This document shows, in pieces, positions 7,033 to 51,800 of a stretch of 64,000 nucleotides of DNA. This stretch comes from Antennarius striatus (lineage: Eukaryota; Chordata; Actinopteri; Lophiiformes; Antennariidae), in contig NC_090780.1 of the NCBI RefSeq assembly GCF_040054535.1, positions 16,773,501 to 16,837,500 of the forward strand. Reading direction: 5' to 3'. How positions within the stretch are numbered: the first letter of the stretch is position 1; the number at the start of each line of letters is the position of its first letter. The notes beneath the pieces were generated by a model. The model was given only the letters and a program-made list of their open reading frames with translations. It was not told the origin of the DNA and ran no database searches. The position numbers and the translations under genes were made by a program.

Positions 7033-7510
7033 AAGCTCCAGCTCCTTTCCCCACAGTGAGGTGACATTCCATGTCCCTAGAGCTAGACTCTTTGTCTAGG
7101 GATTGGGTCGTCGGGCCCCATGCTGACGACTGCCACCCAATCCAGACTGCACCCGTCCCCTAGTTTCCTCAGCGGGTGGTGAATCCACCGGTGGTTCGGC
7201 CCACGTCGTCCTTTCGGGCTGAGCCCGGCCGGGCCCCGTGGGTAGAGGCCTGGCCACTAGGCACTCGCACACGAGTCCCAGCCTGGCTCCAGGGTGGGGC
7301 CCCGGTTGCGCTATACCGGGCGACGTCACGGTCCTTGATTTTGTACTTATCATAGGGTTTTTTGTGCTGCTCTTCATCTGGCCCATCACCCAGGACCTTT
7401 TTGCCAAGGGAGACCCTAGCAGGAGCGTAAAGCCCCTGGCAACATAGCCCCTGGGATCATTCGGGTACTCAAACTCCCCCACCACGATAAGGTGGCAGCT
7501 CTCGGAGGAG
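4735..7510 (-). mobile_element. Rex3/RTE-like non-LTR retrotransposon, nearly complete but dead
   Basis: The element is read on the minus strand, with its 5' end near 7510 and its 3' end near 4735. It is bounded by a perfect 14-bp direct repeat (AATTATACTGATTT at 4721-4734 and 7511-7524), a target-site duplication. The 3' end is a short (GGAT)n tail, as in Rex3-type RTE elements. Translations show an APE endonuclease region (about 7032-6577: [40 protein letters not shown]), a reverse transcriptase (about 6028-5290: GKAPGVDEIRPEYLKSL, SNNRGITLLSLPGK, HMCFMDLEKAFDRV, GLRQGCPLSPAL) and the C-terminal segment (about 5244-4790: EEFKYLGVLFTSEGRMERE, LRWLGHLFRMPPGRLP). Reading frames are broken by frameshifts and stops. 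The FADD catalytic box reads FEDD near 5320 and is followed by a stop. Superfamily is likely RTE; the exact family needs a repeat library. Confidence 0.9.
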
Positions 7511-16807: not shown

Positions 16808-18606
<1,799 letters not shown>

Positions 18607-21060: not shown

Positions 21061-21074
21061 GACAGGGTCAAGTC

Positions 21075-24000
21075 ATGATAATCATAATGATTTCACAAAA
21101 GGAGCCGCTGGACATGGAAATGATAACTTTAAATTATGGCAAAACTGACATTGACATTACTCACATTTCCCACCATTTTGCCAACAGCTACCATGACCGA
21201 TATCAAGCGACCCATTATCCACCGCACTATGGTGAGCGTCAGGATCAAGGCAGAGAGACTGGTTACCTGACTGTAGCACGACAAAGAACAGAAGGGGTTC
21301 CACAGAAAAGCAATAGTTGGATGGACCAAGAAATGAGCGCCCCTTCTCCCTCTCACTTCCCTTTCCTCTGCGACTCTCGCCCTCAGCAGCATCAGGACTT
21401 GGGAGAGTATCAGCTGCATGAAGTCAGAGAGAAAGAGTGGACAAGTGCTCAGCGAGGCATGCGGGGATATGGGAGTGGATTTCTGAGGGAGGGATGGCCG
21501 AGGACGTGGGAGGCCTGTAGTCCTGCCCATTACAACAGGGAAGTTTCTGTTAAGAGGACCGACAGCAGTTATCGAGAGCTGGAGGCTTGGGCAGCGCGAT
21601 ACAGCCATTCACTTCCAAGGAAGAGACGCATAGAGGCAGAGTTGAGGGGTTCCTCTCAAGGGCTATTGGAAAGCAACAGGGCTCAGGAGAGGGACATTAG
21701 GAGTGTGACAGATCCCCGAGTGGCAGCACTGCAACACGTCATACAATCTGCAAACATCAGAGAATCAGGACTGAGGGATAGAGGGGGCAGACAGCTGGTT
21801 CTGACAAGCTATGCATCACAAACCCCAACCACTGGCATGAGCCACACATTGGATGTGAAAGAAAAGACGGGCTACATTAGGAGAATGGTCAGCCATCCTC
21901 CTGGATATGTTGCTCCTCCACCTTACAACAGCCCACATAAAAGCTTGCCTGTGTTAAAAAACAGTGATACCAGCTGTGAGAAGGAAGGTTGGAGACAGAC
22001 CTACTGGTCACAGCCCACACTCTCAAAACAAGATGTCTCTGGACATCCCAGAAAAGGAGACAAAGAGGACTTAAGAACAACAGATGTGACTCAATACATT
22101 TTTTCAGAGTTTGAAGATTTGAAGAACCAAAGACATGAAACGGATATTGTAGAGGTAAGCAGTCCTGTTAGTTCCCGGAAGCCACATATACAGCATGAGG
22201 ATACGTTGTCTCTGCAATGGCCACAAACTCTTCTAGCAGCACATGGTCAAAAGAAAAATGAAGAACCAAACCCTAAAGTCATCGAAGGAAGGAAGTTCAG
22301 GTTAAGCAAAAAGACAGGTGGGCTGACCATATTCTGTTTGGTGTCTCGAATAGCTGGCACAACAGGAACTGTATCCCTGCCTCTTTGCACGTCAGACACG
22401 AGCACAGAAGCAGGAGATGTTTCTAAAAGTTTCAGGGATTTTGATTACAAAGAACAAACATTCAAATTTGCCGATGAGGTAGACTGCAGAGCGCTGACAC
22501 TCTCAGAGCAATCAAATAATTCTGATGTTGGAAATCTCAACGCTTCACAGAAAGTCACGCAAATCTGTGACGAAAAAAAGCTATCAAACAAAGCAGAGCT
22601 TGCTACTATGGCCCTTGAAAAGGAAAGTACAGATGTTGCTGACAGGAGTAAGGTTAATCAGCCTGTGTCTGTCAAATATCCTTTGTGGAGGGAACCCAAT
22701 TTCACAAGCAGGGCTGAAATAGAGAGTTCATCTACAAGCTTGAAAGCTAACAATGAGGAAAGGGAGTCAGATCTTCTGAAGAACCAACACACCTTTGATG
22801 AAACTCATCCAACTAACACTGAAGTGGGGACAGGTGAAATCAAGACAGACACCAAATGTCATGATAATGAGGGCCTACTGCTTATTGACACAACCTGCGT
22901 TGTTGTTAAAATGGAGCTCATTCCATCACCCAAGAAAAAGCAAATTCACTTCTTTGATCACAGTCCACCTGATAGTCATCCTAACATATCTCCTGAATGT
23001 CTTCACTCAAACAGCCCGCTGAAACAAGATGTGAAAATTGTACAAAAAGAAGAAAACAAGCCTATTGATGAAAGATCTGAGGCAGAACTATACTCAGATC
23101 TTGCAGAGAGAAAGCCAACAGATGAGGAAAATGAAATATCTTTCCCCTGCATGTCTTCAGCTTCAGGATCTGAAAAGGAAGCCTTGGAAGAGTGTGCCGA
23201 GGAAATCCTTGTAATCCCTAAACATTATAGTATTACTGAGCAGGAATCTGGAAGATCTCTTCTCGACTTGTGTGTAGGGGACCAGGAACCTTCTCCTATT
23301 GATGACAATGCTACTGGAAGTGCAGCTGAAGAAATCACAGAAGGACAGTCAGAGATTCAAGTCGAAATTGACCAAACTGGAGATGTTCTATGTTTGAAGG
23401 AGAAAGGTAAACCAGAGGATAATATGTCCAGTGATTACAGTGAGGCTTTTGCAGGATCTCAAGAGCAGACCTTTGTCCTATCTGAAGAGAACCACAATGA
23501 CTCCCAACTCAAAACACTGACTTCAAACACAAATGACTCACTAGAATCTGAAATGAGAGAACATCTCGATCTAAGAACTACTAGTGTAGATGATAAGACT
23601 GAATCTGGATTTATCGCCCATAATGCTCCAGAAGACTTAACTCATTATGCTGCACCTTTATCCATTCCGTACAGCCCATCAAAGAAAATGTCATCTTCTC
23701 TTCCCACTGGATCAGAAAACCTTTCCCACAGCTCTGTTTCTCACACAGATCATTATCCAGACCCTTCTCTTGATTTAATAAATCTACCTGCAGATGCAGT
23801 GTCTGGTGTTGGTGAAGCGAGTGAAACATCACCAAAGATAAACAATGAGATCAGTGAAGGCCTTGATGTGTCACAGAAAGACGTGTTAAAGCAACAATTT
23901 GAAAGTGGTAATCTAGACAATCCTCCCAGTGTACCAGAGAGAAATATTTGTGATGAGAATCAAACAAAAGAACCCAATAAGGATACCATAGAACCCATTG

Positions 24001-25826
24001 TACCTGTAAAATCCCAAGATGATGGAACAAAGATCAGCATCTTGGATCAACTTGAATGTGTTCAAGAAAAGGATGTTGCTTGTGTGACACGGAGCTCTAT
24101 GGCTGAAGAGCAACTACCAAAAGAAGTCAAAAATAATCCTAAAGGTCTGATGAAAGCGGCACTATCTGAAGAGACTTTAACTGAATGTCAAACTGGAGCT
24201 GACATTCACCACCAACAATCTGATAACAGCCAAGAAGATGATTATTCCTGTCCAAAAGAAAAATACATGACTGAAGAACAATCAGATGAAGAGGCCAATG
24301 AGGATCCTGCTGGTGTCATGGAAGAGATGATATCCAGAGAAAGTAATATAGACTTTCAAATTGAAATAGAGATAGAAAATGTTCAAGACACTGAACCACA
24401 GACTGAATCTTCTGATTCTTCTTCCTCACCTTTAGACTCTCCCTCTGAGTTGTCTCAGTCATCTGTGGATGTAATCTCACACTCTGGACTTCCTTCTCTT
24501 TCTTCGGTTCCAAACTCAGATTTGGAGCCAACTTCTGTTCCAGTAATAGATGCATCACTTTCATCATCAGACAGTCCCTCAGATCTAAATCCTGTTGGTG
24601 ATGATGAAGGTGATGCATCACTTTCATCATCAGACAGTCCCTCAGATCTAAATCCTGTTGGTGATGATGAAGGTGATGCATCACTTTCATCATCAGACAG
24701 TCCCTCAGATCTAAATCCTGTTGGTCATGATGAAGGTGATGCATCACTTTCATCATCAGACAGTCCCACAGATCTAAATCCTGTTGGTGATGATGAAGGT
24801 GATGCACCACTTTCATCATCAGACAGTACCTCAGATCTAAATCCTGTTGGTGATGATGAAGGTGATGCATCACTTTCATCATCACACAGTCACTCAGATC
24901 TAAATCCTGTTGGTGATGATGAAGGTGATGCATCACTTTCATCATCAGACGGTCCCTCAGATCTAAATCCTGTTGGTCATGATGAAGGTGATGCATCACT
25001 TTCATCATCAGACAGTACCTCAGATCTAAATCCTGTTGGTGATGATGAAGGTGATGCACCACTTTCATCATCAGACAGTACCTCAGATCTAAATCCTGTT
25101 GGTGATGATGAAGGTGATGCATCACTTTCATCATCACACAGTCACTCAGATCTAAATCCCGTTGGTGATGATGAAGGTGATGCATCACCTTCATCATCAG
25201 ACATTCCCTCAGATCTAAATCCTGTTGATGATGATGCTGCTGCCACCCTAGAAATGGTTCCTTCTCTTGTTCTTCTGGACTCTTGTAAAGAGTCAAGCAC
25301 ACCTTCATCAATTTTGTTGCTTCCCAGCATCACAAAAGCAATGCTACAAGAGGGAGGTGGACATGCTCCCCTTGATTTGACCCTCAAAGAAGAGCCCCAG
25401 TACCCAAAGTCGCTCTGGGATGCAGTAAATCGCATTAGGAAACATACAGCACCTGATTCAGAGAATGAGGAGGAGGAGGCGAGTGATTTGTGGGATCCAG
25501 TAAGTGCAGGGAAGGATCTGAGCGGCCTTAATGTGGTAGATAACACTGATATTGAAAGAAGGTTTTTATATGAAGCAGAGCAACTGGAGCTTTTATCAAA
25601 AGGAGATATTGTGGATGCAGCTGAAGTACAGAAGGTTCCATGTGGAGAAGAGGTAAGGGGAGATGATGAAGAGGATTCTCTGTCCAGCAGCAGTGCCAGC
25701 AGCCAGAGCTCCGAGGACACCATTGTTATAGCAGATGAAGATGAGTTTGAGGAGATGGTTATTAATTCCAGGAGGGAAACCAAGTCTGTGCAAAATGAGG
25801 AGTCTCAGGTGGCAGACAATGAATGA
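21075..25826 (+). CDS. ddn: Dendrin-like protein, 1583 aa in one large exon
   Basis: Dendrin is a proline-rich scaffold of the podocyte slit diaphragm and postsynaptic dendrites, binding nephrin, CD2AP and WW-domain proteins through PPxY motifs. Three blocks match human dendrin in order. PPGYVAPPPYNSPHKSL, with a PPPY motif at residues 281-284, parallels human PPPYVAPPSYEGPHRTL. LLLIDTTCVVVK at about 601-612 parallels FVIDATCVVIR and is followed by IPSPKKKQI. AVNRIRKHTAPDSE near 1449-1462 parallels AVSRIRRHTAPDSD. A weaker N-terminal match is ITHISHHF to VKTISCHY. Human dendrin is about 711 aa; this protein is more than twice as long, owing to an acidic Ser/Glu-rich middle and a 21-residue repeat array (residues 1159-1389). 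The ATG at 21075 is the first in frame, with a second at 21114. An acceptor just upstream suggests a 5' exon that I cannot define. The name rests on remembered similarity. Confidence 0.82.
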   Translation: MIIIMISQKEPLDMEMITLNYGKTDIDITHISHHFANSYHDRYQATHYPPHYGERQDQGRETGYLTVARQRTEGVPQKSNSWMDQEMSAPSPSHFPFLCDSRPQQHQDLGEYQLHEVREKEWTSAQRGMRGYGSGFLREGWPRTWEACSPAHYNREVSVKRTDSSYRELEAWAARYSHSLPRKRRIEAELRGSSQGLLESNRAQERDIRSVTDPRVAALQHVIQSANIRESGLRDRGGRQLVLTSYASQTPTTGMSHTLDVKEKTGYIRRMVSHPPGYVAPPPYNSPHKSLPVLKNSDTSCEKEGWRQTYWSQPTLSKQDVSGHPRKGDKEDLRTTDVTQYIFSEFEDLKNQRHETDIVEVSSPVSSRKPHIQHEDTLSLQWPQTLLAAHGQKKNEEPNPKVIEGRKFRLSKKTGGLTIFCLVSRIAGTTGTVSLPLCTSDTSTEAGDVSKSFRDFDYKEQTFKFADEVDCRALTLSEQSNNSDVGNLNASQKVTQICDEKKLSNKAELATMALEKESTDVADRSKVNQPVSVKYPLWREPNFTSRAEIESSSTSLKANNEERESDLLKNQHTFDETHPTNTEVGTGEIKTDTKCHDNEGLLLIDTTCVVVKMELIPSPKKKQIHFFDHSPPDSHPNISPECLHSNSPLKQDVKIVQKEENKPIDERSEAELYSDLAERKPTDEENEISFPCMSSASGSEKEALEECAEEILVIPKHYSITEQESGRSLLDLCVGDQEPSPIDDNATGSAAEEITEGQSEIQVEIDQTGDVLCLKEKGKPEDNMSSDYSEAFAGSQEQTFVLSEENHNDSQLKTLTSNTNDSLESEMREHLDLRTTSVDDKTESGFIAHNAPEDLTHYAAPLSIPYSPSKKMSSSLPTGSENLSHSSVSHTDHYPDPSLDLINLPADAVSGVGEASETSPKINNEISEGLDVSQKDVLKQQFESGNLDNPPSVPERNICDENQTKEPNKDTIEPIVPVKSQDDGTKISILDQLECVQEKDVACVTRSSMAEEQLPKEVKNNPKGLMKAALSEETLTECQTGADIHHQQSDNSQEDDYSCPKEKYMTEEQSDEEANEDPAGVMEEMISRESNIDFQIEIEIENVQDTEPQTESSDSSSSPLDSPSELSQSSVDVISHSGLPSLSSVPNSDLEPTSVPVIDASLSSSDSPSDLNPVGDDEGDASLSSSDSPSDLNPVGDDEGDASLSSSDSPSDLNPVGHDEGDASLSSSDSPTDLNPVGDDEGDAPLSSSDSTSDLNPVGDDEGDASLSSSHSHSDLNPVGDDEGDASLSSSDGPSDLNPVGHDEGDASLSSSDSTSDLNPVGDDEGDAPLSSSDSTSDLNPVGDDEGDASLSSSHSHSDLNPVGDDEGDASPSSSDIPSDLNPVDDDAAATLEMVPSLVLLDSCKESSTPSSILLLPSITKAMLQEGGGHAPLDLTLKEEPQYPKSLWDAVNRIRKHTAPDSENEEEEASDLWDPVSAGKDLSGLNVVDNTDIERRFLYEAEQLELLSKGDIVDAAEVQKVPCGEEVRGDDEEDSLSSSSASSQSSEDTIVIADEDEFEEMVINSRRETKSVQNEESQVADNE
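24549..25241 (+). repeat. 63-bp coding tandem repeat, 11 units, inside ddn
   Basis: Each 63-bp unit encodes 21 residues of the form DASLSSSDSPSDLNPVG followed by DDEG. The eleventh unit is degenerate. Units 3-6 resemble units 7-10 position by position: the HDEG variants are units 3 and 7, the DAPLSSSDSTSD variants units 5 and 9, and the SSSHSHSD variants units 6 and 10. This indicates a later 252-bp duplication of four units. The 63-bp period keeps all six frames in register, which produces a long spurious antisense ORF. Confidence 0.97.
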
Positions 25827-33880: not shown

Positions 33881-35162
33881 TATACTGAAGTAAAACATTA
33901 AAAACACTGCCTGGCTAAAAGAATCTTCACTTGGATTTAACCAACCCAATAGGTAAGAGTTTTCCAATGGATGAACATTAAATATTTCATTGTAAAAAAA
34001 CAAACAGTGGAGCTCAGACCTGTGCTGAACAGTAAAGTTACGAGCCTGACAACAGGAACAATGTGAGGAGAACTCCAGAGATTGGTCCTCAAGACAAGAG
34101 GCGGATGAAGTGATGTCTACCAGACTAACCTGTGGGGGTAGGAAGTTGATCTGGGATTGCTAGAGTTGATCAGGTCACTGTTCAGCAACGTCCCGCGACC
34201 AAAGCACGATGTCCGCCGACTGCACACAAATACTGAAGGAACAGGTTTTTTCTACAAATGGATTTTTTTTCAATGCCTCAATTAATTGCCCTTATATTGT
34301 GAAAGGGCGATTCATGGAACGTGACACATCATTTTCATATGTGGACAGGAACTGGAGAAGACTTGACACAGCGACCGACTCTCCAGGTTTATATATATGA
34401 TTATGGCAAAAAAAAATTATTTGACTCTGGACGGACATAAATGTTGTGACATTGCATAATATTTTTTAAAATAACACCATGGTAAACATGTGCCACAATC
34501 AAAGCTAGAGGTTGTCCAATAAATAGTAGTGTTTTTCTTTTGGCCAGGCAGTGTGTTGTTCAAACAAATGCATGCCAAAAACGATTATTGAACAATTGCA
34601 TCCCGTATTATTCACATTTATAGTGCCACTCTTTTTGGTGACATGTGCAAAGCGATCCAAATATGTAGCACAGGCTTGTCATATTTTGACGGTCATTTTG
34701 GAGGTCTACAGTATCTGTAGTGCAACACTGTCTGAAAACAACCGTGTCCAAACTCATTACTCTGTGATCCCAATGAGGTGAAAGAGTGAATTCAGATTTA
34801 TTTCTGAAAGAGAAATTACTATTTGATGATACAAATTCACCACCTTGTCTTTAAATGAAGATACTGTTCTACCATGTTGTGCTTCATGTGCCGTCACAGT
34901 AACTCAACACCTTTGGATGTGTCTGTATTTGAAGCCTAGAATAATTATTTCAACATGATTTAGCTGAGGTTTTAAAATGTGATAAACAGCAGATCTCACT
35001 GTTTCAGTATTAGAAACATAAAGACATACTTCACTGTGTGTTGTAAGGACACTTAAATAATACGTAAGGCGCAGGGAGGTGAAAACAAGCACATACTGGC
35101 CGAGCCTCTTTGGTCCCATTCTTCTGGCGGGTTATCTTCGCCGCCGTTCAACACCAGTCCTC

Positions 35163-35240
35163 CTATCTCTCAACCAATGTATCAGTGTCCATGTCAGTCA
35201 GTAAGTAAATGTCTGTGTGCCGTGACAGTCCCAGTGGCGT
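35163..35240 (-). CDS. slc11a2: Alternative distal 3' coding exon of slc11a2 ('non-IRE'-type C-terminus)
   Basis: After a pyrimidine-rich acceptor (TCTCTCTCAG, just above 35240) the minus strand encodes [19 protein letters not shown] followed by DTLVER and a stop at 35163-35165. This aligns with the human non-IRE DMT1 tail LGLTAQPELYLLNTMDADS then LVSR. The matching donor is a GTAAGC (37877-37882) inside the proximal terminal exon, after codon AGG of DCGSR and in phase 0. Splicing 37883 to 35240 would give a protein of about 566 aa. The donor position within the proximal last exon also matches the mammalian arrangement. Confidence 0.85.
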   Translation of the reverse strand, partial: TPLGLSRHTDIYLLTDMDTDTLVER

Positions 35241-35450
35241 CTGAGAGAGAGAGGAGATAGAAGCTTTAATCAGAGGTGAGGGTCTTCAGAAGTACAGTAA
35301 TCATCTTTGTAATAGTTTATCAATTGAGAAGACAATTTTATTTACTCAAGTATTTCAGACAATCATTGTCATGACCTGTGGAAACATTTTTACTACTGCA
35401 GCTAATTTTATATTTCTGTCCACTCTAGTTGTTAGTTATCACACGCGCAC

Positions 35451-35491
<41 letters not shown>

Positions 35492-38400
35492 ATGCAGATA
35501 ATGAGAGGTAGAGCAGCAAGAAGCTTCTGTGGTGCCCCCAATGAACAACTTATTTGGGGATGCTTCCTTGCTCAAGGGCACCTCAGCAGTGCTGTGGAGG
35601 TGAACTGGCACCTCTCCACTGCCAGTTCACACTCCAAATGTTTTGGCCCACATGGGTCTTGAACTGGCCACCCTCCGTTCCCCCAACCCAAGACCTAGTG
35701 GACTGAGCTACTGCTGCCCCAAATGAAACTGAGAGGAAAACTTCAGTCAATGGTGTCCTGATGAGGATCAAGTTGGTTTACAATATGGATGTGATTGTTT
35801 GATGATTTGGGAATACATCAGGGTCCTCACCTTGGATCAAAGTCATTTTCCAACCTCATCTTTCCTCATTTAATCCTGGAAAGTCCTGAAAAGAAACACT
35901 TCTCTTGCCTACCATGATGGTTGACAACCTAAAGTCAAATCTGAAACATTTAATAGGCAAACACTTTAGTCTACACTAAAATAGTATTATTTATTAGCGC
36001 AAGACTATACTTGAATAATCATTCTCCTTGTAATCTGAACTCTCAGTCAGGCCATGTATTTGTGATGTTTACAACAACAACAAAAACATCCTTGTTTAGA
36101 CAGTCAGACAGACGACACCAACAAATGTCCAAATAGCCAACATGACATTTATTTTGAAAACGTGTTGTGTTTAATCCATTAGGAAACAACACTCATTCAT
36201 AAACCCAGAAACCAGAAATGAATAACTTCAGTGTACACATCATTGAAGTTTGTTGTGTAATAGCTGAAATGTGCATCAGCCTTCTTTAAATTGTCTCAGA
36301 GATGCATTCATACCTGTATGTGAAGAACACCCTCATCTGAAAAATATACATGATCACCTGCAGAAAAACCTTGAGAAATATTGAGATCTTTAAGACCTCT
36401 GAACCAGAGGGCTGCAAACGTACTGAATCCACCATGAGTAACTTCACTGTGGTCACTATCTGACCAATGTGCTCTTACTGGTTAACAGGTACATGTCATT
36501 TGAAGGTTTGTACATTGGTGCAGTACACACAGTCCAATACTAATCTTGTGGATCAGTACTAAACTGATTTTATTCATTTAATGTGCAAGCTGGGAAAAAT
36601 GTAATACTTTGTCATCGTACAGTAGCTTTAAGTTAGTTGATAATCAAGTTTTACCCATGTCCAGCAATGTTAGAGTCATAACAGAACAAGCAGCACCACC
36701 TTCTACCAGGACGTTAAGAAGTTTACTTTATCATGCTAAGAGATAAGAGGACTAAAGGGAAGAAGTTCTGATCAAAAACAGGTCAGTGCTTAAAAAATTT
36801 GAAAAATGTATAACGCTTCCTCAACTAAGTCTAATTTGGCTTAGTTGTAAATAAAAAATATATTAAACTTAGAATTTGTGTTTGTAACCCTCATTACTGA
36901 TTTGCTGTAAAGGTGGGGAGTTTTTCAATTAATATATTTTGAAAATGATTAATTTCTCCATGGAGGTGCTGTAACTATGAGATTATCTAATCATACACAG
37001 GCACCAAACTCACTTTACCCATCATGCTACTGCACCCACCAGCAGCTGTCAGGTCATACTGTAGTTTGACCCCATTAGTTTAAATGTACCCCTTCAAATC
37101 ACAGTCACTTTGGAATTTGATAGTTATCGCAGTTGTTTATTTTCTGACAGTACAACAAATTATAAGATTCCAGATCAGCAGATCTAGAATAACACTTGGA
37201 TACAGATCCTCCTCTATTTAGCTTTACCTGGCCCAAAAAATTGTGATCAAAGTCTGCTCATAGACTTTTGAGTAATACTGCTAAAAGGATGAACAGGCGA
37301 AAAACATCACATCCTAATGGACATAATGGAAACCTCCTGCTGGTTATATGTGTGTTTGCCTTTGTGGCGTTACCAGTGTATGTTAACCAGCATTAACACA
37401 TTGAAATACAGGCTGAGTTGCTATTTTTCTAAAAACATCTCAATAACATTTTACAAAAACAGTTCAGAAAATCTTGTTTCAACACACAGATAATTGGGTT
37501 TACCTTCGACTCAGTTATAAGTTGTATTAGCAACCCAAGTCATAGGATGTTACTTTACAAACAAACATGAATACAACCATCGCCTGATGCATCTAAATAC
37601 TGTATATCTTTCATCAAACATTGGCAATGATTTTTTTGTGCTGGTGAAATTATAGTGTGGATCGCTGGGTAAGTAGAAAGCAGCATGTAATGAGAGACAG
37701 CCCTACAGAAAAATAATCACCAAATAAAGAAATGTGATTGTCAGATCCTACATGATCTTGGTGGTGTAATGGGGCTCAGTGTCTCCAAGAGTAAAGAGGA
37801 AGGCTGGTGGTTATTGTCCTTTCCAGCTCTAAGAGTCGTACTCAGACGGCTCCTCTATGAACACAGCAGGTCGATTGCTTACCCTGCTGCCACAGTCCAG
37901 GCAGGAAACTCCCAAGGCAACCAAACAATGCCATGCCTGTGGACAACGGCAAGCAGAAAGACACATGGGTGGATGTAATGAGCTTTTCTTCACTAAAACA
38001 ATGGTGAGACCCAAGATTTATTTCAAGCAAACAGTGTTTAATATACACAAATACAGAAAACCTACTGGTATCTATCAGAATAATCTTTTTTTTTTAAATT
38101 TACACCTGTATCTATTTATGTAATTCAGACATTGTATGAAGTGCTCAAAAAATAAATTGGGGGGTTGTGCTGATTCTGTCAAAAATCTGTGTTGCATCTT
38201 CATAACTTGATATCTGGGTCCTCTGGAAGCTTGAAGTTTATACTGTTTGTGTGAATTGTTTTAAAACATGTATCAGTTTGATTTACATGCAAATCTGTTT
38301 GTACTCAGTGAAAATTAGACATATGGCATACCACCTTAAGGCATTTGGAAAAGACAGTGTGCAGTTTCCCATAATTCAAAACGTTATCTGTCCTCAAACA

Positions 38401-41400
38401 CTAAATTATCAATTTAAACTTAGAAACAAGTGTCTCTTACATAACTCAACAAAGTGACTACTATAATCACCTGAGGAATGAAGTAATGTTTGCAGTAATC
38501 AGACTCACCAGGTAGCCTACGAAGCACAGATAGGCTAAGGAGAGCAGAGCGGCCAGGACGTAGAGCAGCACGCTGTTCAGTGACGTCACGTAAACCACCA
38601 CAAAATACATGTTAATGGCACAAACTACCAAGATGACGACACCTCCGGAAATTTTCCACACACTTTAAAAATAAAAACAAAAAAAAACAGGTTAAAAGAC
38701 CAATTGAAAAATGTTTTTTCCCCTAATATGAATGCTCCAGGAAATGTTCCTCACAGTTACGCAAACAAGGAAAGTCCTCGTTTATGTAACAATCTAAAAG
38801 ATGGCCAAGACCAAACAGTCAATAGCAAACATACCGAATTGATCTTTCAATAATTAACTCAACACAGACATTTATCACAACATATGTAACAGCTGGCTGT
38901 CACACAGAGAGAGGTTGTAACTTTACTTCCACTCAGACAGCAGTTCATGTTCCCAGAATGCAAGGCACACAACACAAAACAAGTCTCACACCAAAGAAAC
39001 CACCAATAAAGAACTCTATCATTGGTTCTTCAGTTGTTCAGGTTAATGTGTTCTATTTAGTCTATTTTGAATCTTACTGACTGCTTCAATAATATCGGTG
39101 ATTATATCCACACTGTGATGCAATATCCAAACATTACAAATCTACATGCACGTCTCCTGGGTGTTTCTTTAACTGTACCTCCTGTTATCCTGCTTCGTAG
39201 TAAGACTATGTTTGTCTGCCACGTAATGCTTTTGTGACAGAGAACAGCAAAGAATCTTGAAGAAAATTATTAGACTGCATGCCAACTTCTCGAGCCGTCA
39301 GACTGGCATGCATTCCCTCTGTACTCCACCTTACCTCATTCGTATGTTTGTGTTTTGTTTGTAAGATAAAGGAGAATGCTGTCAGGCCTTACAAAGTCGG
39401 TAAGGACAGTATTAATTTTAAAAATTAATAAATGGAAATCTTCACTCACATATGGTTTGCAAAGTCATTCATTATGGATTTCAGACTGGTGAAGGTCAGA
39501 ATTGGTATTAAAGCAAATGGAAGCTGTTGAACAGAAAGAAAGGTTATAATGAGAAACACACACACAACAATGAAATGTACAAAATTAAAGCTGGACTTCA
39601 GGGTATTAAACAGAAAACATGTTAAATACTATTCTGGAAAGTAGTGCAAAGGTTTACTTAAATGTTTTGTCCTGACCTGCATGCTTTGAAGCACGTTAAG
39701 GAAGTCATTCATCCCCGTCAGATGCTGCACATCCTGAAAAATGGCTACCAGCAGGGTAGGGGTGATGGCGATGGAGCGGGTCAGCAGAACTCGTGCAAAA
39801 CGAGACCATCGTAGGTTCAAAAAACCCTTAAGAAAACACGTTACATGTGAGTTACAATAGTTTTAATTTTATTTCGCCTACATTTACGTGACGCTTTCTT
39901 ACCTCCATAACAAACTGTCCGGAATAAGTGCCTGTCATGGTTGAACTCTGTCCAGCAGCCAAGATCCCTATTGCCCAAATGTAAAGAGCTGCAGGGCCAA
40001 AGAAGCACCCTAGGACCACTCCCTGAACAGATACAGAGAAAGACAGAAATGATCCATCTATGCATAAAAAAAAGAATCTAAACATGAATAATGTAGAGGT
40101 GGTGAAAATATTTGAAAAAAGGGGGTGTAGAAAAAAAGGCCTATTTATAATAAACAAGTTACTTAAATCTTACACACCTACAATCCATTCACACAGGTGG
40201 CTTTACCCTATTTGTCTTATTATACCTTTTTCAGGACTGAGACAGTTTTGACACATCATAAAAAGAAAACACACAACTGCATCTGATATCAATAACAACA
40301 TTCACTTCAGGTGTCCCACTTTCAGCGTCCGATGTCTTGCAACAGCACCTCATCTGACCTCATCTGTATAATCAATAGTATTGCAACACCTTAGATTATT
40401 CATCAATTTGAAGTCTAAAGGTCTCATATGTTCTGTCTGACATCCAATCTACAAGCTTTCAATTGAAACTCCACATTTTATTGGAAATACAGTGCAACCT
40501 CGCGCATTCACGCATTAACACTCGTGACTTTACCTCATCACGGATTTTTGATAGGCAGTCACACGATACTGTACGCGCATTCTATTGGCTGATTGCATCC
40601 GGAAGTGTGCTACCTTCTGTGAGTCTTGGACTTACGTGAGACACAAAAGTACTTAAAACAGTAGATAAGTTTGTGGGGAGGGTTTTTGAACCCTCCCCAT
40701 ATCAGTATGGGGAGGGTTCAAAAACGCTTAAATTACCTTAAGATAAATAGTTCGTTGCTATATCGCAGAATTCGTTATTCGCGTGTGGTTCCTGGAGCGC
40801 ATTAACTGCGAGTAACGAGGGCGCACTGTGGCACAAAAACTAAACATCGAATGATTGAACAAAAAATGTAGTTACTTTTAAACTTACTGTATATTCCCAT
40901 TTAAAATTTAATTACAACACAAAAGAGTGTATGTATATAAAATCACAGGGATGCCAAGCCTCCAGTGATTCAGATTATAGTGTTTGAGAGTATTCCACAA
41001 CATAAAATGGTGACAGGATTGAAAACTGGTTGAGAAATGCTACTTTAAGATGTCTGTTTGATTTGACAAACTGAATTATTTGCCAATAATTCTAATATGC
41101 AGTGCAGATTGAATATTTTGTTTCTTCTCAGATTGTAAAACTTCTCATAAAAGACAGCAACTACCAAGTGAACAGGAACTAGACAAGAACTATAAAGTAA
41201 TGATAAACCTTTTTTTTCTCATTTTGGATCAAAATGAAGAGTGATCAAGAGTGATCATATCTTAGGAATATAATTATAAAATGTGATTAATACATGTAGC
41301 TGGAAAGAAATGCTCCATCAGACTTGTGCAGTAACCTGATGGTCAGGAACGCATCTTTGACATGTAAAAGAATTTCTAATATCCTAGTAACAATTCTTCA

Positions 41401-44400
41401 GTGAGGATTTATTATTGCAGTAAAGATGACCAGACGTACTCCTTTGTAGATGTCCACCTCCAGTGTACCATTGTTGAGAGGGAAGAGATTTGTGTGAGGG
41501 CTGCCGGTTTTATTGCAAAACTCATTCTACAGGAGTGGACACAAAGAAAAACACATCTTATAGCTTTGGAAACTGTCACTGTTTATCCCACTGATTCAAT
41601 ATACAAAGAAAATGAATAGTGAAATGATTTTAGCTCTAGTACTGTATACTCACCACTTCCATGTTGGTTTTATTGTAGAAGGCCTGAGCAAAGACTGCGA
41701 CAACAAAGACATTGATGAGGAAGGAGATGAACAGAGCAATACTTGACTCAATGAAGAAGTATTTGTTGGCTTCCTTCACTTCCTTCTGGTTTTTGCGATC
41801 AATGTCACGAGACTGTAGGACAAGCAAGTGATCAGATTTACTGGTACATTTAAACCGTATCAAACACCCAAAACCAACTCTGAGATATTATTGAATAGTC
41901 TAAATTCTTCTAATTTGACTTGATTTTTGTAGGGGTTATTTGTCAGTCTATATCTGAATGTAGCATCAGATTTTCTAACCTTGACCAGTGCTGAATGCAA
42001 GTAGATGTTATGTGGCATGATCACAGCGCCTACAATTCCTACAGCTTGTTCCAACTGCACAGGCCCACAACCAGCACAGTAAGGCAAGAACATCCCCTTT
42101 AACAGCTCCCCTTGGTCTGGCTTTACCAGGACATACTACAGAAAAGTAACAAAAGATGGCAGCGTGAGCATCCTGGTTGAAAAAAACAACAACTCCCCGA
42201 TTAAAACACCCAGATTAAATTAGTTATATTTAAAATTGTAACAATTCTTACCTCATATCCAAAACTAATAGCCATTACAGTAATGAGAAAACCAAAGAAT
42301 GCTTCAAGTTTTCTTAGACCTGCATGGAGACAAAAAGTGTAATAAGACTGGGAATGAAAAGTTTTTTGGCACTGTTTGGTAACTGAGATAAGGATTAATG
42401 CATACCGTATTTGTCTAGAAAAAGAAACACAAATGTGTCTGTGATGGTGATTAGAACTCCTACCCATAGTGGAATCCTACAAGAAAAACTAGTTATTTGT
42501 ACATGTCTAATCGTTACAGAATATAAATGTGTAAAAATGTTTGCACAAATTTTCCATTATACAAGCTAACAGGATGCACCTGCCCACAGAGAGAAGGTTG
42601 AGAGCTATGGCACAGCCGATAACCTCCTGCATGTCTGAACCAATAATTGCCAGTTCCACCATCAGCCAAAGGATGATCCGAGGAACCTGAAAAAAAAACA
42701 CACACAAAAGAATGCTCAAAATATCCACAAGTTCATTACACAGAGCAAAGACATTTAGAATTTATTTTGTATCTAAAGTATTTTTGTGTCCCTTGCTCAC
42801 TTTGTTGCAGTAAGGAAACAGTGACAGAATGACACATAGTATCACATGCAAAAGGTAGAACGAAAAGAATTCAAGTTGTTTAAAGACGGTGTTGTGCTCA
42901 CTCTGGGGTACTGGCGGTTGCAGACTTCAGCCAAGTGCATCCCAGTGACAACCCCCAGGCGTGCAGCTAGCCTCTGCAACAGCAGCCCAATAATGGTGGC
43001 CCCAAGGAGCACCCATAGGAGCTGAGGAAGAGAGTCAATATCAGCAATAAGCTCATTCTTTTTGACTACATTCACTCATGTTTATGGTAATGTAATTAAG
43101 TGAAAGTTCAAAAGTTGTAATATTTTACACATATAAAATAATCGTGACTAAAATAAGCACAACTCCTTGCTGAGAGAAATATAGCAATACAGCTTATTGT
43201 GTGTGCTTAGAGTAAGGAAACTTCAAGATGACAAGTGTAGCAAAATAGGGAAGACGATCTATGTCTGGATAAAGAACACACAAAAAAAGAAAACATCATT
43301 TCCAGAAATACATAGGAAAAAAAATAGGAAAAACAAGAAAACACAGTCAAAAGGATACGGACTAACAAAGTGAAAAAGGTTTCAAAGTTCACCTTAAAGC
43401 CAGCTTTAGCTCCTGACTGAAGATCAGACTCAATGTTCCCTGGATCCAAGTAAGCAATGCTCATCAAAAACCCCGGTCCAGTGAAGGCCCAGAGTTTACG
43501 GAAACTAAATACCTGAACAGAGTCATATTACTACTGGAGTTAGCTTCAATAATGTGAAATCACTTCAGTTCAAATTAAAATGCCATACTTCCAAAATCCA
43601 ACGAAACCACACAGAAAATTCCCAAGGAAGATCATTTTATTCCTATGATTATTGTATATCATTACATGATTACATACCTGGCTGACATTTTCAGGAATAG
43701 CCACCTTCTCTTCAAAGTAAGTGGAGAAGGGTTCTTCCTGGGCCACAGGTGATTCAGGAGGAGAAATGGAGCTGTACTGGTTTGGACATGGAGCTGACTG
43801 GACACCATTTTCTTGAGATGAGTCCTCTAACCAATCCAAAGAGAATGAGGGGACTTTTATTAGTGATGAGAAACCCAAAGACCAAAATATGATGGGGATG
43901 ATGATCACTGCAACTTTAAGATATTAACATGTTGATCAGCTTGTCTCCATGCAGTAAGATTATAGTGACTTTGTTTTATTTATTGTTGCTGAGGGTTTTT
44001 TTAGATGAGGATTTGCTCTATGAAATTTCTTGATCTCCAAGTATTAACAACTATTTCTGGAGAACAAATTCATCACCAGACCTTTTACTTTTCACAGAAA
44101 AACTTTCTTTTGAGTCAATAGTCTTTAACCCTGACCAAGTTTGAAAGAAACCTTTTTCTATGAATTATCATTGGAAGAAAGACTAGGAAATACAAGAAAT
44201 ACATACATTAGTATCTCTGCCAACTTTGAGACAGGACAGAATTTTAAAAATCACAGCATATGCTTTCGTCTCAGACTATCTATACTAGTTTACTAAGTAT
44301 AACTGATCAACGTGAAAATATAACATATCATAAGACAAGAGAAATTAAACTTCAAAAGACTTAAACCTGCTGTTACCAATCCTGAAACCAGACAAGACAT

Positions 44401-45109
44401 GTTTTTTGAGAATACAGGAATACACACAAAACAACATTCAAAACCATAAAACAGTTCCTACACATTACTTCAGTGTATAAAATTTATTACAATTAGTTCA
44501 AACTATACCAGTAATGATCTGAAGTACTCACTGAGTATGGACTTCTCCGTATGTATTCCATTCATTTCCAACTGACTGCCGATTATAAAGTCCAATGTCC
44601 TCTAATGAGAACTCTGCTTTACGTGACTCAACCATTATCTCTTTTTTCCTGTTGTCAGATGTCACAACGACATTCTGACAAAGAGCTGCTAAAATTAACC
44701 CAATAAGAGTGCTCACTCTTGCTAAAAAAATCCTTGATGAAAACACAAATTACAACTATCTTGTGAAAACACAAGATTCAGAAATACAGCATTTCAATGA
44801 AGTGATCAAATCCAGAGTTCCAGATTTCAGGAATTTCAAGAATAAAAAAGAAAATGTGTAGTTGGAATAGGAGCTTTTCAAAGATTTTAAACTATGTCTA
44901 TTCTAACCAGCACAAAAGACAGTATGTATTTATGTGATATATTATTTATAGTGGCTCAGACATGCACACGGACACAGATGGTGTAAGTCAGCCATGAGGA
45001 GTGTCTAACATTATAGAGCAAAGATGAGTAGGTCTGAAATATATCAGTTGTGAGTCTGTTATCTTTAGCAGCTACCTTCCAGGAGGTCTCCATCTTGCTC
45101 AGATTTCAT
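35163..45109 (-). CDS. slc11a2: Divalent metal transporter 1 (NRAMP2), 558 aa main form, with alternative distal C-terminus
   Basis: DMT1 is a proton-coupled Fe2+/Mn2+ importer of the enterocyte apical and endosomal membranes. Coding exons in transcript order: 45076-45109, 43678-43826, 43393-43512, 42902-43021, 42580-42686, 42406-42476, 42252-42319, 41980-42135, 41654-41812, 41440-41526, 39903-40022, 39677-39826, 39450-39523, 38509-38662 and 37829-37936; phases total 559 codons with stop. Key residues: the metal-binding DPGN of TM1 at 84-87 and MPHN of TM6 at 263-266. Conserved blocks include [44 protein letters not shown] and NMYFVVVYV. The loop between TM7 and TM8 carries N-glycosylation sequons (NKT, NGT). 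The proximal end is [21 protein letters not shown] split as CGSR|VSN..., resembling the mammalian exon 16 tail. A second terminal exon is listed separately. Confidence 0.96.
35440..35720 (-). mobile_element. tRNA-derived SINE with (GT)n tail
   Basis: On the minus strand the head (from 35720) reads GCAGCAGTAGCTCAGTCCA, which fits a Pol III A box, and GGCCAGTTCAAGACCC, which fits a B box. The body contains the common fish phrase CCTTGCTCAAGGGCACCTC (plus strand). It ends in a GT/CA tail at 35440-35491. It sits in the long slc11a2 intron that precedes the distal 3' exon. Confidence 0.7.
35730..37828 (-). other. slc11a2 proximal 3' UTR / alternative intron
   Basis: This is 3' UTR when the proximal terminal exon is used and intron when the distal exon is used. 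I saw no canonical iron-responsive element loop (CAGTGN) on the minus strand in the first ~630 nt after the proximal stop at 37829-37831. The rest is AT-rich with no other gene. Confidence 0.6.
40500..40828. mobile_element. Tigger/pogo-like element, longer copy 2 (329 bp)
   Basis: TIRs CAGTGCAACCTCGC and GAGGGCGCACTG, with TA at the left and a degraded TG at the right. It shares ACTGTACGCGCATTCTATTG with copy 1 but keeps about 156 bp more internal sequence, including a 19-bp perfect hairpin. It is intronic in slc11a2. Confidence 0.75.
40682..40725. repeat. Perfect 19-bp inverted repeat with 6-nt loop
   Basis: Arms 40682-40700 and 40707-40725 (GTTTTTGAACCCTCCCCAT and its exact complement) surround ATCAGT. 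A third GGGGAGGG block just upstream (40675-40682) can pair with the first CCCTCCCC as an alternative fold. Confidence 0.95.
43827..45075 (-). other. slc11a2 intron between coding exons 1 and 2
   Basis: The sequence is AT-rich. One minus-strand ORF (44746-44528, including [18 protein letters not shown]) has a good GTGAGT donor at its end but no recognisable family, and it is not needed for a complete DMT1 protein. It could be a cassette or alternative exon, or chance. Confidence 0.4.
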
Positions 45110-47924
45110 CGGGGAAAGGTGAGGAATCCCTGGAAACTTGAGGGATGAATATCAGCTTCTCTAGAATAAGAAAATAACAGTTATATAATTTAAAGAAGAT
45201 ATGCCTGTTGGGAGAAAAACTATAATTATCGTGCAAAGTGTTGAACTCATTACCCTTTTTTTGTGTTTTTTTGCTGGGCTGCCACAGAAATTCACTTCAG
45301 TCTTTCTGACAACAAAGCAGTCAGCTTGAAAAAATAAGCCTCATCATCCAACTTTTTTGTTGAGAATTAAAAAAGTCACGAGTCAAAATAATGACTAAGC
45401 AACATGTGAAAAGCCACAAGAATATTTAAAAAAAATTGCCCAATGGCACTGGAGTATCACATCCACAACAAACTCTCTAAAACTGGTAATTATCAAACAA
45501 AAGATGGACAAACCCTGGGTCACATGTCAACAATTGTGTGTTATAACACCATGTTCTCTGTCACATGACTGGGCAATCACATGATGTAAAGACGAGTTGA
45601 AGCAGTAGACAAAGCAGCTTTCCCGACAGTCGAAGTTATAAGCATTAGCAGCATTACAAGGTCGTATCAATTCAATAATTATTTCTTGTACCAATATGAA
45701 AAATAACCATGAAAACATTGTTTTATAATGAATCAAAATTTCCACATTACACGGGGTTTGCTGTTTTTTAAAAACATTATGAAGCTTTTGTATATCAACG
45801 GAGTCACTAAACAATCTGTCTCTTGCTTTCCTCCTCCAGAGTTACTGCCATAATGTCACAGGATGAGGCATCTCCATCAAACTACACTAAAAACTATCAT
45901 TTGTGGCTTGTAAATCTTTTTCACGTTGTGAAATAGAGCATTTTCGTTTACATTTTCCAAATTAATGAAAAAACAAGTCAACTGATTTACACAAAACTTG
46001 CAGAGGGAGGGAGGTGGGTATATGGGGCAAAAAGCCAAAAACCTTTGGTGTGGATCCAGTACTTTTTGTTAAGATCTTTCTACAGCATTGCTAATACACA
46101 TTTCCTGCCTTCTAAAAGTATATAGATCAATACATCTTTGTGGTCAAAAAAATAAAATCCCACAAACATCTATAGATGCTAACTTTGTGGTGCAGATATG
46201 GATAATGATCCTGATATGCTAGATAACCGTATGTACAGTGTTTTTAAGGAAGTGATCTTTATTTAGCAAAAAGATCTAGACAGGCAGCCAGATAGAGACG
46301 TCTAAGAGTGTTGTGGTTACAAACCTCACCACGTCATGCATGTATATAATTTTTCCAAGTCTCATCCTCTATGAACACCACTGTGTACTAATCTGCCTTG
46401 AACAGCTTTGACAATCACTAAATCTATGACAACTCCCAAACTGACAAATGAGCTCTACTGTTCCACCCCTGTTACAACACTACGATCTGTAAATCATTTA
46501 ATGCCGATTTGTAACGGAAACTTGAGCAAAGACAGCGATTCACATGTTAATACAAAAAAAAGAATTGTTTTTGAGAATCATGTCCACATTCAGAATTTCA
46601 CAACAGCAATATGATTCACTAAATTTGATAATTTTTACCACTGTGTTTGCATCACCTGATCTTGTAGAAACATTGTATAAATGTTCAGAAACTGAGGAGC
46701 ACTCTTGTTGTAATTCTGAAATGGAAAATTTTTCAATTCTCACCTCATATGTGAATTCAGCTGCTCAATAGTTTGTGGTCTAATTTTTTGTATCATTATT
46801 TTCAAAATGCACCAAAATATTTTCTATGGGTGACAAGTGAGGACTGCAGGTTGATCAATTTAGCACTTGTAATTTTTTCTTACAGAGCAATGCTGTTCCA
46901 TGAGCAAAATACTATTTGGCATTGTCCCAGTGAAATAAGCAATACCTTCCCTGAAAAAAAGCAAAATTAGTTCACCAGTTTTTTGGGTCGTTTGTTTGTT
47001 GTTGTTTTTAATGTCGAGTACATTATTCTTAAATTGCTCAACTATTTAACAGTGCAGTCTTTCACAGAGCACCGATCCCTCCCCATCTTTACTGCAGAAA
47101 GACTCAGCTTTCTGGAAACTTTTTCCATACCTGTTCATGTTTTGGATTTTTTGGGGGGGTTATTTTAGTTGTGTTTTTTTTTACTGCAGAAGAAGAGGAT
47201 TTTCTTCTCTGCATTTGACTAATCCTTAAACACCAGTCGGCAGCCTTTTTGGCAGCTGGGGAGCAAATTGGGATTACGGTTGGTGCCTTGCTCAAGGATA
47301 CATCTGAAGGGGATCTGTATATGGCTTTGACTCGAACCACCAACCTTCCAAGAAGTAACCTGTGGCTAGTTAATCTAATTCATTTTGGCATTTTCAAGGT
47401 TTTTTCCTTTTGTATTTTACAGTACTTTTACAGTATTGGGTTATATCAACTTTTTTTAGTGTATTGCTGACATTAAATTAAAAACAGGCTTATAATTTTC
47501 AAAACACAAAGATAGTTTTCATTTTAAATATGTTCTATCTGTGATATTTCAAATTAAATATGGTTTTCAGTGTTTTGCAATTAATCACATTCTGTTTGTA
47601 TTTAGATTTTACACAGAATCCTAACGTTTCTGGAGTGACGCGCTAAAAAAAACCTTAAGACCTTAGACAACTATTGTATGGCTAAAACTGACCTGATAAG
47701 CCAAAACACAAGCTCACTGAATAAACAGTAAACATTTGGTAACAAAATGGCATTTGAAACGCATCTCTACCAAATCTGATTAAAAAAACAAAAAAAACAA
47801 CAACCCCAGCGCTCGAAAATCAAGTGTCCGCTACTGTGATCAAGCTAACAAGTTCACTTAAAATGTTAGCTGTCTGGTTGGGTTTGGTACTGACAACCTT
47901 ACTTTAACAGGGAGAAGGCCTTAC
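45110..47924 (-). other. slc11a2 5' UTR of exon 2 and first intron
   Basis: The exon containing the ATG extends to an acceptor at 45160 (TTATTCTAG on the minus strand). A GTAAGG donor at 47919-47924 is the best candidate for the end of non-coding exon 1. Between them I see only AT-rich intron and one SINE-like repeat (about 47160-47360). Confidence 0.5.
47160..47360. mobile_element. SINE-like fish repeat
   Basis: CTCTGCATTTGACTAATCC, GCAGCTGGGGAGCAAATTGG, GGTGCCTTGCTCAAGGATAC and TGACTCGAACCACCAACCTT follow the order of a common teleost tRNA-related repeat. It shares the CCTTGCTCAAGG core with the SINE at 35440-35720. Confidence 0.55.
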
Positions 47925-48837
47925 CTGTAACACCTTTAGGGGAGGTACAATCAAGTGTTCTTCTGATTAAAGCTACCTTTAAAAAAATACCATTTGCCTA
48001 AGTTGCAGGGTAGCTAAACAAAACGTCTTCAAGCTAAATTCAGTCAAAGTCGTCTCTTCCCATGACAAGTGTGTTAACAATCAACGCGCATGCGTGACAA
48101 GGTAGCTGTGATTGGCCAATAGATTGCGGGACATTGTTAGAGGTGGACAGGGATTGGTCTATTAGGCAGAGCGTACGCAATGACGTCATTGAGCATATCA
48201 ATAAATTACTGTAATTAATGCAAAGTAAAATGATCAGATACTGAAAATTATGTATGTGAGGATAAAATTATAGGACATACCACCATCTTTTTCAGTTTAA
48301 TTTTTTTGGTTTAAACTTCAGAAATACAGATATTTTAGTATGATTTAATCTAAAATTTGTGTTGGACTAAATACTTCACTTAGCTAAATCAGATATTTTA
48401 TACACACTATTAATTTTACTCATCATATCATTATGTTACACAAAATGTACTGATTTTTGTTCTATTCAAGACTCAACTATTTTTTTAAAAATTGATGCAA
48501 CGGTAATTGTCTTTGTAAAAATTTATAAAGGTGATGTGTTGTGATATTTCCAGTAATTTGGAAAATAGATTTATTTTAAGAAATATTTTCAATAAGAACA
48601 TAACGAAACCCATAAATGTTTTTTTAAAAAAACAAAAAAAACAATACACATAAGAAGAAGAAAACCCTCCGTTAAATGGTTGGTAAGTCTCTTCCAGTGG
48701 ATCACGTTCTTTAACTTTCCTCGCGATAGTCTGGCAGCAGCACATACCCCAGCAGCTACTTTAGCTATCGCTAGGCTAACCAGCTACTATAAAGTGACAT
48801 GTAGTCTCAACGAAGGAGCTTTCAGACTGATTGGGAT
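47925..48837. promoter_or_regulatory. Divergent promoter region of slc11a2 (-) and ankrd52 (+)
   Basis: The interval separates two oppositely transcribed genes. It holds an NRF1-type palindrome CGCGCATGCG (48085-48094), a double CCAAT box ATTGGCCAAT (48111-48120), another ATTGG (48153-48157) and a full CRE TGACGTCA (48181-48188). These cluster beside the putative slc11a2 exon 1. Near ankrd52 there is ACTATAAAG (about 48786) before the ATG at 48838. Factor binding is inferred from motifs only. Confidence 0.5.
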
Positions 48838-51800
48838 ATGGAATTAAGACATATTAAGGACCAGGTAATAACTAAGGATTTACTGTTCAATAGAAAGTAA
48901 TGTGTAATAGTTAAACCCTACTTCTGACCATCACTGCAAACACCGGGCTAATCATGTTAGCGACATGTCGAGCAAAGTTTGCTATCAGGCTGGTTATGAT
49001 GACAAATTCAGTTTCGAACATGAGTTTACTAAACTTCAGTTTTAGTTTTTTTGATGCTCTTCATGTTCGACTCCATCAGTGGTCAAAAACTTGACAAACA
49101 ACTGATTTATACATCAATTTATCAATTTATAATCTAATCTGTTATATGACTCTCTTCTGTCTTGGTTGTATGCTTAACATTATCCATAGATACAAGTTTT
49201 GATGATCCATTACTTAAAAGTTCCTAAAGTAAAAATTAAGGTTTGCACGATGTAACTAAAAAAATAGTACACTGAATATATATCCTCAATTCAAGTAAAC
49301 TTCAGGATACACATTGCTAGTTTTTTTATATCTCTAAAGGCAATTTTGACACATAGTATCTTGAAATGCACATAGGAGACATTGTTACTCATTTTTTACC
49401 CTGACTTAGTTTTTGGTATCCCTATAAACTAATTTTGTAGATATATTTATTATTACTGCAGAGTTAAAGCTATTTGCTGATTACTGCTGTTTAACTGAAA
49501 TTGTGTTTAATCACTGCTTCTATGAGGATTGTTGCTTCCTACAACATAAGGAAGTTTTTGTGTAACAAATGTGTGTTTGTCAAATATCTGTTTCAGTCTC
49601 CACTGGTCCAGGCTGTATTTAGCCGAAACACAGAAGAGGTGACATTTTTATTGAACCACAATGAAGATGTCAATTTGCTGGTAATTCCATCACATTGTAA
49701 CTGTTTAGATTTGTTTTCTGCATATTGCATTAAGAAATTTGTGTGCAAAATGTATATTGAGCTTGTACCAGTTTCAGTGACTTTTAGCTGTTATAATAAG
49801 TTATCTTTTTTCACAACCAGGGCAGATTTTCTGCAATTATACTGTATATGTATACCATCTTTGGTTTTGGCATAATGGTTTTCAGACATTTGATGCCATT
49901 TAACTACCTCATTTGATTTGTTTTTTGTTTGTTTGTTTTTGTTTGTTTGTTTTTTCTAGGACCAAGAGCAAAGCACACCACTTCATGCTGCCGCTTATTT
50001 GGGGGATGTCAACACCATGGAACTACTTATTGCTTCAGGTAAAATGAAGGCCATTCTATAATGTGTCTGAAAAAACAAATTCTACAAATTATCTTATCTT
50101 CTCTAGTAATTAATGAATGCAATGAGGCATTCAAGTATAGAATAACTTCAATTTACTCAAAACTAAAATTTATCATTTTCTTTCTGTTGCAGGTGCGAAT
50201 GTCAATGTTAAGGACCAGGGCTTGCTGACTCCTTTACATCGGGCAGCCGCTTCACAAAATGAAGTATGTCAATATTTTATTTCCTATTTTACAGCAGGAT
50301 TTGACCACCAAATTTTAGAAGTTTTTTTTTTTTATTGTTATCTTTGAATTTTTTGTTCTCAGAAAGCTGTGGAGTTGCTGCTAAAGCACAAAGCAGAGGT
50401 CAACGGAAAAGACAAATTCTGGCATACACCGTTACACATGGCAGCTGCAAAGTGGGCTGCAGGTTGTGCTTTAGCTCTGATACCACATGTACGCAGCCTC
50501 GATGTTGCTGACAAGTCAGGGAGGACGCCGCTACATCACGCAGCACACAGCGGACACAGTGAGGTGAGCTGTACAGTTCATGACACAGTATGACAATGTT
50601 ATATATTTCTTTTGACAGTCTAAATAGCACTGCTGGAAAGTACAGTATAATGTTGTTTATGATAATGATTAATAACTGGTGGACGTTGTCTGAGTTATTG
50701 TAGTTTGTGGAGCATAGTGGTAAATATACTTTGTTTTCTCAAAACATTTATTAGTAGTCAAAATACAGCCAAAGCTAAATGTTTTAGCGTGTTGCTTCTC
50801 TCGAGCCAAAACTGTGTGGTCCACTTGACTATGATTGTAAAGTGACCGTGGTTAACCCAGTTATATTTCTGCAGATGGTGAGGTTGCTGCTGATCAAAGG
50901 TGCCAATGCTTGTGCCAAAGATAAGAAGGAAAGGCAGGCAATCCACTGGGCTGCATACCTTGGTAAGAACCATAAGGAATAGATGTTAATCATAAATTAC
51001 ATCAATATACAATAAATTAAAAATAACCAAGTTAAAAATCAGCCAGGACCCACCAAATACCTGAGAACTGACTCACAGTTACAGATGGATGCTATTAACA
51101 TTTTAACTACAAAAAGACTGGCCCAACAATTTCACATTTTTCTGGGATTTTGCTGAGGCCATTGAAATTGAAAAGATGTTCTTACAATCACATGATGAGC
51201 TACGATGGTTATTTTTGTTAAAAAATATTTTTACAAACATTTTCACATGCTTAAGTTAGACTAATTATAAAAAATTGCGTAAGAGATGCATGATGTGTTT
51301 GTAGAGAATGTATGAACAAGACTAATCAGATCTGATCGACTTCATCGACACTTTTGAATGACTGATCACTTGATTCACATGAGTTTGATCTATATTTGTA
51401 AGTTAGGAAAATAATTTTGTTCTGGACATAAAGAGATAGATGGTATAAAATAATATAGTATTAAAACTTGGTTCTTAATTAATGATAACTAAATAATTCT
51501 GGTTTTGGTTATCAACACAACCTCAGCCTATTTCAGTTAAACCAAGGTCGCGCTCTCAATATAGTCAAATCTGATTACAATATTGTTTTAAATTTGTAAT
51601 GAATTCAACTCGACAAAATGACGAGACGAGACTCTGTCCTTGTACTGAGGCGGCTTTCTTTACTGAATTTAAAAAAAAGAGTTGTAGGTGTCCCAAAACA
51701 ACTGAGGTTTCTTAGCTTGCCTGCTAACAACAATTCTTCGTGTACTGTTTTTTTTTTCTCTGCACCTCGTGCGTCACTGAAATCAGACCGCCATAAACAA

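Follow-up and report, generated by a model that had tools for sequence, protein, structure and literature searches.

Does the slc11a2 (DMT1) gene of Antennarius striatus end in one C-terminus or in two, and, if in two, what would the choice between them decide? The gene is located on the minus strand of the window (the whole 64-kb stretch of DNA analysed here), and once its exons were joined, the reading frame was open throughout and encoded 558 residues if it ended proximally and 566 if distally. The distal-form protein contained the Nramp domain PF01566 in Pfam (E=3.2e-113, 378.9 bits versus a cut-off of 29.8) and matched human DMT1 (PDB 9f6n) with an E-value of 4e-274. The assigned and candidate features are collected in Table 1.

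Table 1. Features of slc11a2 and its alternative ends, in window coordinates.
Feature	Position	Strand	Basis or remark
Exons 2-14, common transporter core (Pfam Nramp)	38509..43826	-	Frame open once joined; Pfam and human DMT1 matches
Exon 15, proximal terminal coding exon, 108 nt, 35 aa + TAG	37829..37936	-	Sequence and frame
Alternative donor GTAAGC inside exon 15, in phase (AGG/GTA AGC, 37883/37882)	37877..37882	-	Use keeps 54 of 108 nt
Distal-form intron, 2642 nt	35241..37882	-	Sequence
Exon 16, coding part, 78 nt, 25 residues + stop	35163..35240	-	Sequence, frame, tail homology, sea bass size
First AATAAA 3' of proximal stop, candidate proximal poly(A) signal	37136..37141	-	Would give a 3'UTR of ~700 nt
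First AATAAA 3' of distal stop, candidate distal poly(A) signal	34797..34802	-	Would give a 3'UTR of ~380 nt
Candidate exon 1A, 34 nt coding (11 residues + 1 nt)	45076..45109	-	By eye; joins exon 2 in phase
Candidate exon 1B, 34 nt coding (11 residues + 1 nt)	44532..44565	-	ATG-to-phase-1-donor scan

The initial annotation had placed an in-phase GTAAGC donor within the proximal terminal exon, a strong acceptor just above 35240, and a distal exon about 2.6 kb downstream that encodes a 25-residue tail. The donor proved correct to the base, and the acceptor (TTCTATCTCCTCTCTCTCTCAG/ACG at 35241/35240) and the sizes of the intron and exon agreed as well. The choice of donor swaps 17 residues of the proximal form for 25 of the distal form, a difference of 8 residues between the isoforms. 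At its 5' end, the distal-form intron includes sequence that belongs to the proximal transcript (the final 54 nt of exon 15 and the proximal 3'UTR), and further poly(A) signals are present between the AATAAA at 37141 and that at 34802. On the basis of sequence, phase, splice signals and homology, the distal form is predicted to be spliced in Antennarius striatus, and the candidate poly(A) sites would be used to end the two transcripts. Reading by eye also showed a (GT)n run and SINE-like sequence in the intron at 35430-35710, some hundreds of bases before the exon 16 acceptor.

Both splice signals of the distal form were strong. The in-exon donor scored 8.84 with a consensus matrix, the 15 other assigned donors scoring from 3.15 to 10.17, and it ranked in the top 0.74% of the 3907 GTs on the minus strand by the same matrix. 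The exon 16 acceptor is preceded by 19 pyrimidines in 20 bases, compared with 11 to 16 for the 14 other assigned acceptors; at least 18 of 20 were found at 0.05% of the 3927 minus-strand AGs.

The relationship of the distal tail to that of mammals was evaluated by direct alignment and by searching PDB with the fish tail. When the mammalian non-IRE tail was aligned with the frames of the window, the frame of exon 16 gave a score of 62 (BLOSUM62) and the runner-up 32, and the best frame per simulated 64-kb sequence scored 30-38 (n=15, Markov-1). The search of 177,635 PDB sequences with the 25-residue tail returned a sole match at E<=10 (5f0l_D), with a modest E-value of 0.0079. This is a 24-residue chain of the molecule 'Natural resistance-associated macrophage protein 2' (DMT1) in entry 5f0l, which we take to be a structure of the SNX3-retromer complex, and 12 of 23 residues were identical to the fish tail. 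The match to the mammalian tail that had been proposed from the sequence thus stood, and the alignment with 5f0l_D also confirmed the mammalian letters quoted with that proposal. The chain represents the tail of DMT1-II, presumably the non-IRE isoform, and the fish distal tail likewise contains YLL, at the aligned position, and an L-V-x-R end. The proximal tail contains no YLL. The whole genome (548 Mb, 42 contigs) was searched with both tails: the fish tail detected one match at E<=0.001, exon 16 itself, and the human tail gave no match at E<=10, an empty answer that is uninformative by itself. A literature search with the tail letters returned only papers unrelated by title.

Judged by these alignments, exon 16 is a homologue of the mammalian distal tail exon. 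The other half of the arrangement can be followed in the proximal form, where DCGSRVSN aligns with DCGHTVSI of human DMT1 (9f6n). As GTA AGC encodes V-S and V-S is also found in 9f6n, the human exon probably has the same in-exon donor as that of the fish. The initial annotation had dated the dual C-terminus to before the fish-tetrapod split, and a common origin of that age is indeed the simplest reading of the tail homology together with the shared V-S.

What the choice of tail decides is most likely the recycling of the transporter. We put at about 90% the probability that the window gene is slc11a2-beta (DMT1) of the teleosts, that its terminal exon is composite and that its distal form is retrieved by SNX3-retromer, the proximal form having no such signal. 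The two ends would compete, cleavage after exon 15 against splicing of the in-exon donor to exon 16. If the in-exon donor is ignored, cleavage in the following interval would yield the 558-residue protein with the proximal tail; if it is spliced to exon 16, the product would be the 566-residue protein, whose tail is homologous to that of human DMT1-II and keeps YLL. SNX3-retromer would then retrieve the distal form from endosomes, and the proximal form would lack a retrieval signal. Two reviews (PMC8247582, PMC9988951) characterise the YLL of DMT1-II as a retrieval motif or as bound by SNX3 with retromer. As the fish distal tail keeps YLL and the proximal tail is without it, we infer retromer sorting of the distal form, from these three residues and the tail homology. 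No literature on a retromer motif of a fish DMT1 tail was found among the matches listed (titles and abstract starts), which is a weak negative.

The mammalian isoform pair is named for an IRE switch, and the 3'UTRs of the two fish forms also differ. The choice of 3' end might thus serve mainly RNA regulation, as in the mammalian switch, with the tail being secondary. A 3' IRE is present in mammalian SLC11A2, and such elements in some fish, e.g., fugu and carp, are cited in PMC3103463. In contrast to the mammalian gene, the sequence search of the window gene found none: Rfam gave no match of any family at the gathering score over the whole window, and the nine weak matches at E<=10 in 34000-38100 included no IRE. 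Eight CAGNGN loops were detected in the two 3' regions, four in 37828-35241 and four in 35162-34700, and the best upper stem had 3 of 5 pairs. The motif C-N5-CAGWG occurred 87 times in the whole window versus a shuffle mean of 53, a number attained in none of 100 shuffles. On the gene strand, one copy was located in 35241-37828 (3/5 upper-stem pairs) and one in 34700-35162 (2/5). In the literature likewise, the 3' regions of the sea bass gene contained no clear IRE (PMC3103463), and none is reported for bream Nramp (PMC5946104). A role mainly in RNA regulation is therefore unlikely. With no IRE detected in either 3' region of the gene, the 'non-IRE' label expresses the relationship of this tail to the mammalian one rather than an IRE switch. 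The 'mammalian-style' end of the initial annotation accordingly stood with respect to the tail homologue and the in-exon donor that can reach it, and did not stand with respect to the IRE label. The likeness of the fish pair to the mammalian pair would lie in the protein tails and, as far as the sequence shows, not extend to the IRE switch, which suggests that isoform choice is primarily about transporter sorting and that the IRE is a separate feature.

The distal exon could also be a relic, homologous to the mammalian exon and no longer spliced in Antennarius striatus. The precedent for this gene is European sea bass (Dicentrarchus labrax) slc11a2-beta, for which Neves et al. (2011, PMC3103463) obtained four transcripts, beta1 to beta4, by primer walking, RACE and shotgun-contig analysis. 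According to that paper, most of the tissues tested expressed mainly the proximal forms, beta1 and beta2, and less of the distal ones, which would fit a relic. The same source gives significant beta3 expression for head kidney, stomach and rectum; in gill, beta4 accounted for 26% of the beta expression. In the window, the frame is open, the donor and acceptor are strong, the stop codon and tail motif are intact, and the 3' exon sizes are the same as those given for sea bass, all of which make a relic very improbable. Chance, with a random open frame following a pyrimidine-rich AG and looking like the mammalian tail by coincidence, has next to no probability: the exon is short, its PDB E-value modest and the human-tail genome search empty, but its alignment score stands far above those of the 15 simulated windows and, as strong evidence against chance, the reported sea bass cDNA has the same 78-bp exon and 54-bp donor offset.

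A second slc11a2 copy of the same genome, alpha-like, was identified by matches at C2:26243935-26249103, with its last coding exon near 26243856 reading VWLCLIALGVSCLNPSASRENDGTILIEQQPEFES followed by the stop. It shares with the window gene a homologous core and a homologous proximal tail (VWLCLIALGVSCLN...ILIEQQPEFES). No donor-like site was seen by eye at the place homologous to the in-exon donor. When the fish tail was compared with the minus-strand frames of 20 kb at this copy (extending ~9.7 kb downstream of the last exon), no tail exon was found; the best score of 31 was judged to be noise against the simulated 30-38, a range obtained with the human tail on 64 kb. The claim that slc11a2 keeps two ends consequently applies to the window (beta) copy and not to the second one. 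The assignment of the window gene as beta is indicated by its exon structure and by the other copy being without donor and tail. The second copy, which shows neither the donor nor a recognisable tail exon, matches sea bass alpha, which is described with a single transcript (PMC3103463). As the tail is present in human and in beta, loss from alpha is the simplest account. A broader proposal, that after the teleost genome duplication the YLL/retromer form of DMT1 was kept in beta alone, alpha having lost the in-exon donor and the tail exon, and that the dual C-terminus is an ancient sorting switch independent of the IRE switch, stands in our judgement at even odds.

The 5' end of the gene was assigned with candidates. 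For sea bass, the excerpts give exons 1A and 1B as 34 bp each (PMC3103463), and 34-nt in-phase candidates for both were present in the window, chosen partly by eye and by size. The donor of the exon 1A candidate, GTAGCT, is outside the donor pattern of the first-exon scan. Scanning of 43870-50000 gave four ATG-to-phase-1-donor candidates, two of them 34 nt long, and the one listed as exon 1B was picked by its position between exons 1A and 2. A near match to the 23-base sea bass slc11a2-beta '5' IRE' motif was located at 45547-45569 (minus strand), 438 bp upstream of the candidate ATG of exon 1A, with 22 bases aligned, one inserted base and one mismatch. Most letters of the sea bass element are thus kept here. 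As its bulge base is A and just 4 of 5 upper-stem pairs form, the reported '5' IRE' is probably not a conserved IRE. Four CATGTGA boxes, three on the minus and one on the plus strand, were found within 181 bp (45403-45583) upstream of the exon 1A candidate. We take this cluster to be E-box/M-box-like, and it may act as a promoter element; the 23 copies of CATGTGA in the 64 kb are not an unusual number (11 of 100 shuffles reached 23).

Elsewhere in the window, a 63-bp tandem repeat (24549-25236, plus strand; 10.9 copies, 95% matches) lies inside an open frame of 1587 residues (21063-25826) and constitutes an in-frame protein repeat (DASLSSSDSPSDLNPVGDDEG), which is perhaps polymorphic in length. 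Neighbouring open frames at 18100-18606 and 52373-52816 (both plus strand) matched Methyltransf_16 lysine methyltransferase and ankyrin repeats. Open frames at 5519-7095 (minus strand) resembled a broken non-LTR retrotransposon by eye, and the two of them that were tested gave no Pfam match at E<=0.001.

The two-ended 3' arrangement of slc11a2-beta is already known, having been published from sea bass in 2011 (PMC3103463). This analysis adds support, from a second fish genome, for the retention of two C-terminal tails by one teleost DMT1 copy, and connects the distal tail of the fish with a human retromer-cargo peptide; beyond the known arrangement, what remains is the sorting-motif and paralogue-loss reading. 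The results should help gene annotation and work on DMT1 trafficking in fish, and would be no surprise to a specialist. In the excerpts of PMC3103463, exon 15 of sea bass slc11a2-beta has 108 bp with an internal donor that removes the final 54 bp, exon 16 has 78 bp (25 aa), and the 3'UTRs are 569 (proximal) and 319 (distal). The 3' sizes of 108, 54 and 78 are identical in the window, and the isoforms differ by 8 residues in both species, while the proteins are of 558 and 566 aa in the window versus 554 and 562 aa in sea bass. The distance from the exon 1A ATG to the exon 16 stop is 9947 bp in the window versus 10543 in sea bass. With regard to human, the same source states that alternate exons, not an alternative donor, are used (PMC3103463). 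Contrary to that statement, the V-S in the 9f6n protein, a comparison at the level of protein sequence only, suggests that the human gene shares the geometry of the fish gene.
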